This document shows, piece by piece, positions 30,449 to 62,038 of a stretch of DNA of 64,000 bases. The notes below the pieces were generated by a model. It worked only from the letters and a program-made list of their open reading frames with translations. It had not been told where the DNA came from and ran no database searches. How positions within the stretch are numbered: position 1 is the first letter of the stretch; every line of letters begins with the position of its first letter. This DNA is from Ptychodera flava (taxonomy: Eukaryota > Hemichordata > Enteropneusta > Ptychoderidae): assembly GCF_041260155.1 (NCBI RefSeq), contig NC_091936.1, forward strand, positions 41,319,963 to 41,383,962, read 5' to 3'. Both the position numbers and the translations under genes were made by a program.

Positions 30449-33400
30449 ATGGTCAGCATGCAGTGGAAACTCCCAGTGATTACAATACTCGTATTCTTGT
30501 GTCTTTTCTCTCGCAAGGTAAGATCAGTTCCCCTCATTTGCCGATTTTCCACCAAGGTTGTAAAATGACATAAAATGCGCTATGTTAGAACTACAACTGT
30601 TATTGTAGTGGCAAACTTTTTCACCTTTCGTTCGCTGTCTGTCTTTCAAATCTCAACTCTAAAATGAAATCATTGGCCACGTGTTTTGCTGTAATCACTT
30701 TATGTTCAACGTATGTGTCAACATTTGAAACAAAACTTACAAAGGAGAGAATGGTCATAAAAATAAAACAACCTTTACTTTTTGTTTTGTTCTAATAACA
30801 GGTGGACGCCATTAGCTGCCAAGATGGAAGGTAGGTAGCTATGCCAGATACAAAGCTCTCTTCCTCGATTTGTACATCTTAACAAATACGGGAAAGCACT
30901 AAATGCAAAATTGTCTCTGGATTACCCATTTATTCTGGACAACCGAAATTCAAAAGAGAAACGTTTAATTAAGCTATAATTTTTTCAGCGCCCGCAAACA
31001 AAGTAAGACGTTAACACTTATAAACACCAGCTCGTTATGTGCTAAAACAGCCGAAGGCCTTTTACTATTTCTTTCGACACGGGACGGTTCTAGTAACATT
31101 CTTAAGATAACGTTTCTACTCTTTTGACAGTATCGAATTGTAGTTCACCTGTAGTGGCAGTAAGTTTAGCCTTATTGTGGATGAAGCTTCGTTGTCATCT
31201 TTTTACAGTGTTTTTTTGGAAGTCTATACAGTTTGTCATTGACGGGGATGAGGTAGACAATTGCGGGTATTTATAGCGTCGACGCTACATGCAGTATTTT
31301 TGGCGATCCGTACAAGCTACTGGTACAAAAAATGAAGTCCGCGTTTGGTTGTGATCTTCTTCCATTTCTACACGTTTTTTATCAAATAACAATATGGTTT
31401 GGTGTTGCATATATACAAAATTGAGAGCGAATTCATAACAAAATGCAAGCAACGCACGTAATATTTAAACACAGACAAAAGAACAAGAAGGCTACCCCTG
31501 TTCTATGTTAATTTTTCAATTGTTAATCATAGGAATAGCGTCACATATTTGTGTTCAAATACAAAGGGAATTTTTGTTGTGCGAAACCATTTCAATGAAA
31601 CGAATAATTCCTTTTTCACAAGAGAATAGCCTTTCAAATATGTTTATTGAATTAGATATGAAGATATGTCCTCGCATAGAATTAATTAACCGACATGAGA
31701 ACACGTCTAATCTTGTTCCGATCGTCCTATTCGCCCTCGGAAACATTGATACAGTCAGCAACTATTCTGGTTCTTAGTGCTTACTTATGGTGCTGCGTCA
31801 AAGACAAACGACTTTCCTCTGTATTTTTATCATATATTTATGGCATCATTATTAGACTATTAGCGATGCCAAGAACTAATATTAAAACGCTAGAAACTGC
31901 GCAAATTGTTGTCCTAATGGGGACTTTCGCAACTTCAACCGCGCTTCATGTACACACGGATGTTATTTGTTTTGGATAAAATAACACTGTCAACACATTT
32001 CACAGTCTATTATGACAACAATGCGACAAACTGTGAGAATGTTCAATGTGCCCAAACCGATAGAGTGCTGAAATGCGAGAGAGAGAGAGAGAGAGAGAGA
32101 GAGAGAGAGAGAGAGAGAGAGAGAGAGAGAGGGGGGGGCAATGAAACAATATGCTACCAAACAAATCTAGCTGTACCTCTCATGTGATATTGACGACGGA
32201 TACATAAAATAATTTCACACATAAAGAATCTGCCTAAAATCTTGATCCTCGATAGCAGGTACTAGTTTAGAAACATCAAACTGGTTCATGAATTCAGTGA
32301 ATTGACGTGCACCCAACAATGACGATGTCATTGATACTTACAGCTGAAACCGATACCTGTAATCAACCACAGTGTATGATACAACGGAAACAACATTTAG
32401 ATGTTTGTCTTTACCGCCATATTCCTTCTATGATTTTACATAAAGCATTGCGTTACCAAGTGACTATATCACTGCGTAGTGTTACCACAAATTTTACAAA
32501 CGAGGTAGTACTGCAAGTCCTTTAAATGGGTAACTTTTGCAAACAGTTACTTTCATGAGTGATAATACTAATCAAGTTATCTAGACCATATTCAAATATT
32601 TATTGGGGACACATACCTGTCGACTGCGTATATTGTCTGATATGGTGGAGTAAAGAGTGAGTTCAATGTACATGGAAACTTCTCTGATTATGACTGCCAT
32701 GCGAAGTTGCTTGTTGAAGGTTTCGTCTGTGAGATTTACTCTTCGTTTCACTTTCTTAGATGTGAAAATGATGGCGGCGTAGATGTGACTGGTGAGCAGT
32801 GGTCCCTGTCATGGAAATGGTAAGACATAAAACACCGGATTCCATTTCAATACCAAGGACGACGGAATTACTTCAAAACAAATCACAACAGTATTGGCAA
32901 CAGGCAAAGCCAACATGATTTTATTTTACAAGCATTAGTGCAAGACTACGGGGGACATTGTAACTTGATTGTTATTGTTTATACTTATATTGCTATTTGT
33001 AAATAAAATTGAAGAATACTAATTTGTTGTTGTTGTTGTTATAGTTGTTGTTTTAATCATATTGTTATCATTTGAAATACATGTATGATTACCGTAATAA
33101 TTGAGTTTCCTTAGCGAAGAAGAACCACTAAATCCGGCTCCGACCTCTACATTCCCTCTTACGGATATCGCCGATAACAACAACAAAATAACCAACGACC
33201 ACCAGGTTACTAATTTCGCTGTTGTAAAGACCTATACTAATTTCTGCCTTTGAAACGGTCTTCGACATTGAAACAAGAAATTTTTTAAACTTAGTTTTGA
33301 AGTATGAGCACTACAGAGATAACTTGTTGTCTGTGTATCAATGGCTAGAACGTTTGATGTTATCACGTATTTTCACGTTCAGTCACTTTGACAATCTATT

Positions 33401-59400: not shown

Positions 59401-62038
59401 TGGTTTACAATTGAGAGAGTTGAAAGATTTTGAGCATTTTCAAAATACCAGGAGTCGAAAATCCATAGAAAACAACGGAACGGTATGATTTTGCACGTTC
59501 AAACGTGCGCGTTTGGAACGTTGCCAGCGATAGCAATTAAAGTCGCAAGGCGGCAGTGTGCTTCAGACAAAGTACCTTTGCCCACAGCGTTCAAGTGACC
59601 AAAATTCAATACAACATGTGAACATTAACTGTAAACATATGTTTGGAAAGTAAACTGCCTACCCGGAACTAAAAAGAAAAATTGAACAAAATGCACGTCG
59701 TCGCCCAATCTTTTGAAAGCAGCCATGGCCAGAAACAATCCTTGTTTCTTTACCTGACAGCGGCCTACCACCCACAGGCTGTAATTTGTCGGTAACATTT
59801 TCATTATTGATATCCTACAAAACAACATCAAATTCTTACTCTTCTTCCTGTAGTATGTATAAACACAAAACATGAGTCTTGCAAACACGATAGGTTGGTT
59901 ACATTATGAATGTTATTGTTGACAAATGGATTATAGTCCGGACTAGAATTCAGTTGTCAATGGTGACACTGGACACAACACAACACAACAAACCGTGAAC
60001 ACGCGCGCACATACAAGCTGTATTGACAAGGTAAAATCTGTAGACATTTCAAAATTATTTTGGAAGTAGTAAAAGAAACTAGATCTTCCAAACGGAACAA
60101 AAAGTGTTGGAAAATTCATAGAAATCAGAGCTTATACAGCTTGAATTACGTGTGTTTGAATTCAAGGAGTAAATCACTGCATAATAAGCTTATTCATCAT
60201 ATTAGCAGAGCGTGCTGAAACCCTGCGCGCATGCTTTGCTTAGCGATATAACGCGTAAATTTGAAAAGAAAGCTCGTTTTCATCGATTCGAAAGTATGGT
60301 TTTAACCCATGTCGATATCAGAGATGGCAAGGGGACTATTCTTTGGGAGAGTGTTTATTCATCGTTAGAAGTAACGTTATTAATGTGTTCAAAATCTGCA
60401 AACGTCTCCTTCGGCAACCTGAGAAGTGTATTTTCGATTCTGCGATATAACCAACTGACACAGAGGTCGAAGGTGATGTTTACAAATGTTTCAAAATACT
60501 AAACACAACTTTGGACCTGCACTGGCTAACTGGCAAAGAAAAGTTGCAAATGGATATGGTTCACTTTCGGAATAAACTTGTTAATCTTTTACAGATGTAA
60601 CGAGCATACTCACTATTGTTGTGGCGAAAACAAATGCTGTACCGTCGCTTGGTATTACGAATGGTGGGCATGGTAGGTACAGCTATATGCTTTTTCATTA
60701 CTTGATTTATAGTAAAAAAAGTCTGAGGAAATTAGAAATATCTACCATCACTTAACGGCGTTTATTTTTCGTTTCGCTCGTAGGTTCTTGATCGTCGTTG
60801 GGGCTATTGCGCTTTTCATACTTTTCGCAGCGGTTTTTTACTACGGCTCAAAGGCGTGTGAGAAAGATTCGCGATCGTCGAAGAGTTTCGGGACAAAATC
60901 TGACCAGACGGGGACCCCGAGCGATTATGACAGCGGAGATGAAAGAACCCCGTTACTAGGAGGCGAAAGTGCTATTTATACCGAAGAAAAGGAAGGCAAA
61001 CGTAGTCCACCGAGGACTGATTCAATATCAGACAAATCTGAATCTGAACCCGAACAGCAATCAGCCCAAGCGTCTGAACCCGAACAAGAACCAGAATCAC
61101 AAGAGGATCTCATAAATTTAGAGTCTACAGCACCGCCACCCCAGGGACCAACTCCAGCATCCCCTCCACCTCAAGGTGCCTCTCCTTATCCAGTCCCTAC
61201 CCAGCTACCCCAAGAAGATTTACTGTCGTCAACCCCTGTTCAAAGAGCTGCGACAGAAGCTCTGCGAGGCCAAGAGTCCGGGCCTGACGGACAGAGGCCC
61301 GAGTCGTCGACTGCAACCGGGGATTCTGGCGGCGACGCATTGCAAATGCAGGACGTTTCTCCAACACCATCGGACGAAGAAAAGACTCCTGGATCACCAC
61401 AGATAGAAGAAACAAGCTTGGATGATGCCCCTCGGGAAAGGGAGGGAGATGTTTCCCCGCCCACGGAAAGTCAGCCAGAACCTCGAAGGGAGGAAGAAGA
61501 AGCCGATCCTGCCGGTGCCCCAGTTCCTCCACAGCAACCATCGAGTGAACCAGTAGAAAAGTCAGAAGAACCCCTACAACCTGTAAAAGATGCGACGGAG
61601 CAAGAAAAGCAAACAAGAAGCGACCAACCCGGTACGGATGACCAGAAACCAGAAGAAGAGGAAAACCAGTCTCGTTCGCCGGAAGGTGAGGCAACGCCAG
61701 GAGACAGAGATGCAGTTGTGGACAAAGATACTGACCAATCAGAGGAACCCAAGGCAGCTTTAAAGGAAGAGGATTCAACAGGAACGGACCCAGCGAAGTC
61801 GCAGGTCGATACCGAAGCCGAGGAACCTGCCAAAGAAGAACATACGACGCCCTCTGATGATGGTAGTCAAGAGGGAGGCGATCAGAGTGCCGAAGAAACT
61901 GCAGAAAAGAGGGACCAGTCCACAGATACGCAGGAACAAAAAGAAGAAACTGGGGAAATGCAAGATGAGAAAGAAACGGGTGATAGCGAGGCTAAGGAAC
62001 AGACTACGCCAGAACAACAAACAAAGGAATCAGAATAG
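56422..62038 (+). CDS. gene C: WBP1/VOPP1/Shisa-like cysteine-rich membrane adaptor
   Basis: Exons: 56422-56490 (phase 0), 56904-56929 (2), 58317-58382 (2), 60595-60672 (2) and 60784-62038, giving 497 residues. The signal peptide core is [15 protein letters not shown]. The ectodomain has 13 cysteines in two modules, [14 protein letters not shown] (exon 3) and [15 protein letters not shown] (exon 4), then [11 protein letters not shown] and a membrane helix at 81-101. The CC..CC pattern with aromatic residues just before the helix is that of the WBP1/VOPP1/Shisa-like (STMC6) superfamily, whose members are trafficking adaptors. The tail is Glu/Gln/Pro/Ser-rich and disordered. It has an ERTPLL acidic dileucine signal at 133-138, the type bound by AP adaptors for endolysosomal sorting. 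I found no PPxY motif of the WBP1 kind. The first ATG after the TATA box is taken as start. Confidence 0.8.
57143..57290. repeat. (TA)n microsatellite, intron 2 of gene C
   Basis: About 145 bp of TA dinucleotides with a single TTACA interruption near 57198. It opens long Tyr-Ile frames on both strands that are meaningless. Confidence 0.95.
57370..57917 (-). CDS. unrecognised antisense open frame in intron 2 of gene C
   Basis: An open minus-strand frame of about 180 codons with protein-like composition ([17 protein letters not shown].., [32 protein letters not shown]). It contains 8 cysteines, and a possible splice acceptor sits at its start (AAATGAAG|GTAGACG). It has no ATG near the start, so it would be an internal or last exon, or a remnant of a mobile or retroposed gene. 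No family recognised, and chance cannot be excluded. Confidence 0.2.
58521..58542. repeat. perfect 22-bp palindrome in intron 3 of gene C
   Basis: CATAGACCCT joined to its inverse AGGGTCTATG around CG, with CGAG at the centre. The flanks (GCTTTAAG on the left, CTTTAAGC on the right) extend the symmetry imperfectly. Confidence 0.85.

Follow-up and report, generated by a model that had tools for sequence, protein, structure and literature searches.

A probable family of WBP1-like membrane-adaptor genes duplicated in tandem with one exon plan in Ptychodera flava

We analyzed a 64,000-nucleotide stretch of the genome of the acorn worm Ptychodera flava (Hemichordata; assembly GCF_041260155.1, contig NC_091936.1, positions 41,319,963 to 41,383,962, forward strand; hereafter the window) and rebuilt the models of three genes, A, B, and C, which lie head-to-tail in tandem at positions 30449 to 62038 of the window. 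The three genes are probably tandem duplicates of one WBP1-like gene (of the WBP1/VOPP1/CYYR1 or STMC6 kind), encoding type I membrane adaptors that would recruit partners by their tails. The exon plan, the profile match of C, the Cys positions, and the absence of PY motifs can be read directly from the DNA; we infer the duplication history, the order of losses, the cellular location, and the recruiting role.

The rebuilt reading frames are open through all four or five exons, giving proteins of 1413 residues for A (four exons), 361 residues for B (four exons; 369 residues with the start used in the NCBI protein), and 497 residues for C (five exons). In each gene, a signal-peptide exon ending in phase 0 is followed by a mini exon of 29 base pairs (bp) in A and B and 26 bp in C. 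The mini exon runs from phase 0 to 2, opens with a Val codon (GTG, GTA, and GTC, respectively), and has Cys as codon 6 in all three genes, with an additional Cys at codon 3 in C. The short exons that come next, four in total, are all of phase 2-2 and all open with N/TGT (Cys, the slash marking a codon boundary). The last exons, of 4084 bp (A), 940 bp (B), and 1255 bp (C), all begin in phase 2. The exons are as follows:

Gene A exon 1, 30449..30517, + strand: signal peptide, with the hydrophobic stretch within residues 1-29; ends in phase 0.
Gene A exon 2, 30802..30830, + strand: 29-bp mini exon VDAISCQDG, containing the first Cys of the ectodomain; phase 0 to 2.
Gene A exon 3, 32760..32819, + strand: second ectodomain Cys (TGT) at the start and W-K-W at the end, the last Trp codon split TG/G; phase 2-2.
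Gene A last exon, 33477..37560, + strand: membrane helix, at about residues 53-76, followed by roughly 1337 tail residues.
Gene B exon 1, 51723..51812 (NCBI protein start) or 51747..51812 (rebuilt model), + strand.
Gene B exon 2, 52527..52555, + strand: 29-bp mini exon VHTQQCIGT, with identical residues in the NCBI protein.
Gene B exon 3, 53050..53100, + strand: second ectodomain Cys at the start and SWQI(P) at the end; phase 2-2.
Gene B last exon, 53930..54869, + strand: membrane helix, followed by roughly 284 tail residues.
Gene C exon 1, 56422..56490, + strand: signal peptide.
Gene C exon 2, 56904..56929, + strand: 26-bp mini exon VNCQTCEP.
Gene C exon 3, 58317..58382, + strand: extra C-x5-CC-x4-CC module.
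Gene C exon 4, 60595..60672, + strand: WBP-1-matching C-x6-CC-x4-CC module; last Trp codon split TG/G at the end.
Gene C last exon, 60784..62038, + strand: membrane helix, DERTPLL, and a Glu/Pro/Ser/Gln-rich tail of about 392 residues.

An initial annotation had described three genes in tandem that share an exon plan, and its coordinates and phases were recovered on rebuilding. The B model shows 100% identity along its full 361 residues to an NCBI/UniRef entry, "uncharacterized protein [Ptychodera flava]", the sole protein at E ≤ 1 among the 7992 candidates scored. The NCBI protein has the same exons and starts eight residues earlier (ATG at 51723), which yields the 90-bp exon 1 of the initial annotation. 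Outside support for a gene model exists for B only. The splice sites, scored with approximate matrix values, were mostly strong (donors 4.3-12.7 bits, acceptors 6.3-13.2 bits). The weakest donors were those after exon 3 of C (4.3 bits) and exon 3 of B (5.8 bits), and the latter is used in the NCBI protein.

We scanned the window for the plan itself, defined as a signal-peptide exon, a 20-35 bp Val-start exon with Cys, and a Cys-start exon of phase 2-2. On the + strand, all three mini-exon candidates, all five Cys-exon candidates (two with a common start), and all seven full chains fell inside genes A-C, with eight candidates for the signal-peptide exon. The minus strand gave no mini exon and no chain, with three Cys exons and eight signal-peptide exons. 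In 60 dinucleotide shuffles of the window, one strand each, the mean counts were 0.07 for mini exons, 0.35 for Cys exons, and 2.75 for signal-peptide exons, and none of the 60 held a full chain. The scan criteria were fixed after reading the initial annotation, so that these counts show specificity and give no unbiased probability. A 17-beta-hydroxysteroid dehydrogenase 14-like gene of nine coding segments in the same window showed no such mini or Cys exon in the scan, and neither the scan nor a six-frame C..CC..CC search found further copies of the cluster genes elsewhere in the window. The three genes have the build of single-pass membrane adaptors, as proposed earlier, and paralogy is the best explanation for them.

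By the profile match of its N-terminal part, gene C can be recognized as WBP1-like (Pfam WBP-1, of the STMC6 clan), so that the cluster can be compared with a described family. Residues 1-167 of C scored 30.5 bits against Pfam WBP-1 (PF11669; cut-off 28.1), and the matched region, residues 60-111, spans the junction of exons 4 and 5. WBP-1 was the only Pfam family near its cut-off for C. None of ten decoys that left all Cys residues, the helix, and the signal peptide in place and shuffled the remaining ectodomain residues matched WBP-1 at E ≤ 1. A 92-residue version of C with exon 3 and without exon 4 gave no match at E ≤ 5, so we take exon 4 as the canonical module. The reciprocal 96-residue version, without exon 3, scored 26.9 bits against WBP-1, under the cut-off, and weakly matched CYYR1 (16.2 bits vs a cut-off of 31). 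Against solved structures, the N-terminal part of C had two matches up to E = 10, the best at E = 1, and these were unrelated. Between the signal peptide and the helix, C contains the six-Cys pattern C*C*CC*CC, formed by exon 2 with either exon 3 or exon 4 and accompanied by extra Cys, and the aromatic juxtamembrane motif AWYYEWWAW stands ahead of the helix. The gapped score between the exon 3 and exon 4 modules (C-x5/6-CC-x4-CC) was reached by 23 of 5000 shuffles that kept the first Cys; this likeness, together with the 2-2 phase of both exons, makes exon duplication the plain reading.

The ectodomains of A and B hold two Cys each (residues 29 and 34 in A; 28 and 33 in B) and do not contain the C*C*CC*CC pattern. 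Of these two Cys, one is encoded by codon 6 of the mini exon and the other by the codon that opens the following exon, and C has Cys at both places too. Because the only two ectodomain Cys of A and B match places of Cys in the C core, we read the two genes as core-poor relatives that may have lost CC*CC. Furthermore, the pre-helix segment ends in W-K-W (SWKW) in A and in W-A-W in C, and in both genes the codon of the last Trp is cut TG/G by a phase-2 intron. The six-frame C..CC..CC search revealed no missed CC*CC exon in the introns of A or B; its matches were exons 3 and 4 of C and three sites in repeat-like sequence, one of which (33025-33051, intron 3 of A) is a TTG-repeat run with stops ahead. 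A structure prediction for B (NCBI protein, single sequence) had a mean pLDDT of 53.7, with helices at 56-85, 151-160, and 254-303, the last corresponding to 246-295 of the 361-residue model. Compared with the PDB, the predicted fold had six matches at E ≤ 10 and none at E ≤ 0.001, and was uninformative.

The helix of B was also considered for its likeness to DAP10, which we rejected at 14.8 bits against a cut-off of 22.9, or 13.2 bits for the first 83 residues of B alone. This resemblance, along with the divergence of ectodomains and tails, is what would be expected if the genes encoded rapidly evolving immune-type signaling adaptors or receptors, in which each small ectodomain would recognize a ligand or a partner receptor and the long tail would signal. 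We regard this as very unlikely, given the sub-threshold DAP10 scores and the scarcity of sites resembling immunoreceptor tyrosine-based inhibitory motifs, with one in A vs 1.19 expected and none in B or C.

Several results weigh against descent of all three genes from one WBP1-like gene. Full-length C scored 26.5 bits against WBP-1, under the 28.1 cut-off; we suppose that tail composition lowered the score. The C model was not found in the protein collection, in which 1511 candidates gave none at E ≤ 10 in a search with the full protein (region 1-145), candidate lengths being limited to 0.55-1.75 times the query; the searches of this collection covered B and C. An earlier search, with 231 residues of C, gave no result either, under length limits that left the full-length protein out of reach. 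The failure to find C in the collection (within these limits) and the two weak donors are compatible with gene models that are partly wrong, with some short exons unused and the shared plan overstated. This explanation appears highly improbable, since all three models are open through four to five exons, the exons of B, weak donor included, are those of the NCBI protein, and the WBP-1 match crosses the exon 4/5 junction of C.

Further opposing results concern A, B, and the tails. Neither A nor B has a Pfam match near a cut-off or any match in NCBIfam (a prokaryote library); the initial annotation had recognized no described family in them. The pre-helix segment of B ends in SWQIP with a single Trp, so that the junction Trp is off by one residue and the split codon is Pro. 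The tails, of about 1337 (A), 284 (B), and 392 (C) residues after the helix, aligned no better than shuffled sequences (equal or higher scores in 207, 328, and 399 of 500 shuffles for A-B, A-C, and B-C, respectively), and gapless tail blocks did not exceed shuffles either. We found no PPxY or LPxY, by which known relatives recruit ligases, in the tails of A, B, or C, and we therefore describe the cluster, C included, as WBP1-like without counting it as full STMC6 membership. A VQT block near the C-terminal ends of A (SVQTERS) and B (FVQTDSS) was borderline and setting-dependent: it was reached by 135, 394, 251, and 741 of 5000 shuffles with whole-tail composition, and by 81 and 37 of 5000 with local composition. 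The claim of "very fast tail evolution" does not follow from such alignments; unalignable tails fit fast divergence and, equally, separate tail acquisition.

The lack of a detectable sequence family for A and B and the unalignable tails would also fit a scenario in which C is the sole WBP1-type gene, A and B encode type I membrane proteins unrelated to it, and their plan came to look like that of C through convergence or local exon capture. We consider this unlikely. The common phase series (with one more 2-2 exon in C), the Val-start exon of under 30 bp with Cys at codon 6, and the TGT-start exon after it recur in all three genes within 32 kb and in no other part of the window, and the W-x-W with a split Trp codon is common to A and C.

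Additionally, we surveyed the tails for short motifs. DERTPLL lies about 28 residues past the helix in C. The pattern [DE]xxxL[LI] has one site in the C tail vs 0.10 expected, and a stricter dileucine pattern, written after seeing DERTPLL, has an expectation of 0.01. The signal of LIMP2, DERAPLI, is handled by AP-1 and AP-3 (PMC5297682, excerpt). DERTPLL closely resembles this signal and suggests that C may undergo endolysosomal sorting. A and B have YxxPhi sequences, YSAV (20 residues past the helix) and YGTF (18 residues past the helix), respectively. A sorting-type motif thus lies within 45 residues past the helix in all three proteins, a condition met by 1098 (A), 470 (B), and 165 (C) of 5000 shuffles, the two motif types having been selected after looking. 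YSAV and YGTF are frequent in shuffles and are therefore treated as candidates only. Toward the other end of the tails, [VT]QT[DE], a pattern picked after looking, turned up within the final 20 residues in 37 of 20000 shuffles for A and in 32 for B. Known binding motifs for LC8, a dynein light chain, include a VQT core (PMC9481538, excerpt), and LC8 binding by A and B may be taken as a lead only. A block shared by A (KYGYTVYLTR) and B (QYGVTVFLAK) was discarded, being reached by 93, 100, 394, and 447 of 1000 shuffles under four settings. The first three quarters of the A tail are acidic, and the last quarter is basic. As a separate observation, GYxxPhi occurs in the last exon of A (33477-37560) at residues 277, 372, 407, and 1060, four sites vs 0.32 expected; this count was reached by 2 of 5000 shuffles, for one of 15 motifs tried in three tails.

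If the three genes are indeed WBP1-like paralogues, each would produce a type I single-pass protein with a signal peptide, a tiny luminal or extracellular part, one helix, and a long, probably unstructured cytoplasmic tail. The C*C*CC*CC core would be split by introns, the mini exon supplying the first Cys, the next exon the second Cys with CC*CC and the aromatic segment, and the last exon the helix and tail. Gene C would have gained a second CC*CC exon by duplication, a frame-safe change in phase 2-2; in A and B, CC*CC would have been lost, leaving C*C alone. The membrane-proximal adaptor signals (DERTPLL in C; the candidates YSAV in A and YGTF in B) may hold the proteins in endosome/lysosome or plasma membranes, where the tails could recruit cytosolic partners in the manner of WBP1L, VOPP1, and CYYR1. 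WBP1L links NEDD4-type ligases to CXCR4 at membranes (PMC6991692, excerpt), WWOX is brought to a lysosomal compartment that contains VOPP1 (PMC6125347, excerpt), CYYR1 is found on late endosomes with WWP1 (PMC11399591, excerpt), and both VOPP1 and CYYR1 act through PPxY (PMC6125347 and PMC11399591, excerpts). Since PY motifs are absent from A-C, their partners would have to differ from those of the known relatives.

A more specific version is possible, and we advance it tentatively as the less likely course: a core-less WBP1/STMC6 branch in which a fixed exon plan preserved the leader, the C*C stub, and the helix as a membrane-anchor cassette, and unrelated scaffolds, as long as about 1337 residues, took the place of the PY-type ligase-recruiting tail. 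Were such tail-swapping true, recruitment of NEDD4-type ligases would not be the essential work of the clan in hemichordates.

The rest of the window holds other features. The dehydrogenase-like gene occupies 9698-19817 (+), its best solved relatives are HSD17B14 (E about 1e-86), and it might serve as a synteny anchor on the left side of the cluster; a 31-bp minisatellite of 12.2 copies (14270-14647) lies in its intron after the segment 14117-14206. A 470-codon open frame at 539-1951 (-) matches DDE_Tnp_1_7 with 220.7 bits, and we take it to be a piggyBac-type transposase; a 253-codon open frame at 2184-2945 (-) adjoins it. Between A and B, a 117-bp satellite of 14.6 copies (47031-48740) is open for 323 codons on the minus strand and is probably non-coding. 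Intron 2 of B has a perfect 80-bp tandem duplication (52731-52890) shortly upstream of exon 3. Intron 2 of C holds a 181-codon open frame on the opposite strand (57370-57915, -), which is protein-like by eye and had no Pfam match at E ≤ 1.

The intron phases and Cys positions tie two otherwise unrecognizable genes to an adaptor clan where sequence search fails, and they point to a Cys core built from exon modules, which can be doubled, as in C, or largely discarded, as in A and B. If this interpretation is right, the cluster offers a natural test of the role of the ectodomain and PY motifs in WBP1/VOPP1-type proteins, in a group close to chordates. No title on this cluster was found among the literature matches listed, which is no proof of absence.

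The founding paper of the STMC6 family is reportedly that of Pei and Grishin in 2012. To our knowledge, the tail of A far exceeds that of any known clan member. The features of STMC6 are a C*C*CC*CC core, an aromatic juxtamembrane motif, and PY motifs in the tail (PMC5578492 and PMC6991692, excerpts). Like WBP1 and WBP1L (OPAL1; PF11669), C combines a signal peptide, a short Cys core, an aromatic juxtamembrane segment, one helix, and a cytoplasmic tail; unlike WBP1 and WBP1L, A, B, and C have tails without [L/P]PxY, C has two CC*CC modules, and A and B have two ectodomain Cys. VOPP1 and CYYR1, of the STMC6 clan, have the same body plan, from which the cluster differs by the lack of a PY motif in A-C and by the LIMP2-like dileucine in C. 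TMEM207 has been placed beside the STMC6 family despite having no canonical Cys domain (PMC6125347, excerpt). As described in that excerpt, TMEM207 has the juxtamembrane aromatic motif and PPxY. TMEM207 is a precedent for a core-less relative, as A and B may be; ahead of the helix, A (SWKW) and, more weakly, B (SWQIP) may resemble it, and A-C have no PPxY. Shisa and ShisaL proteins belong to the same superfamily and have expanded in hemichordates, with 4 in P. flava and 16 in S. kowalevskii (PMC7653359, excerpt), whereas C matches WBP-1 and no Shisa family was among the Pfam matches listed for A, B, or C. What is surprising in the cluster is that the module of C is doubled, that the cores of A and B are stripped down, that A has an outsized tail, and that none of the three genes encodes a PY motif. 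The cluster does not represent a novel type of system; it is a variant, specific to its lineage, with a relationship to an adaptor clan already described.

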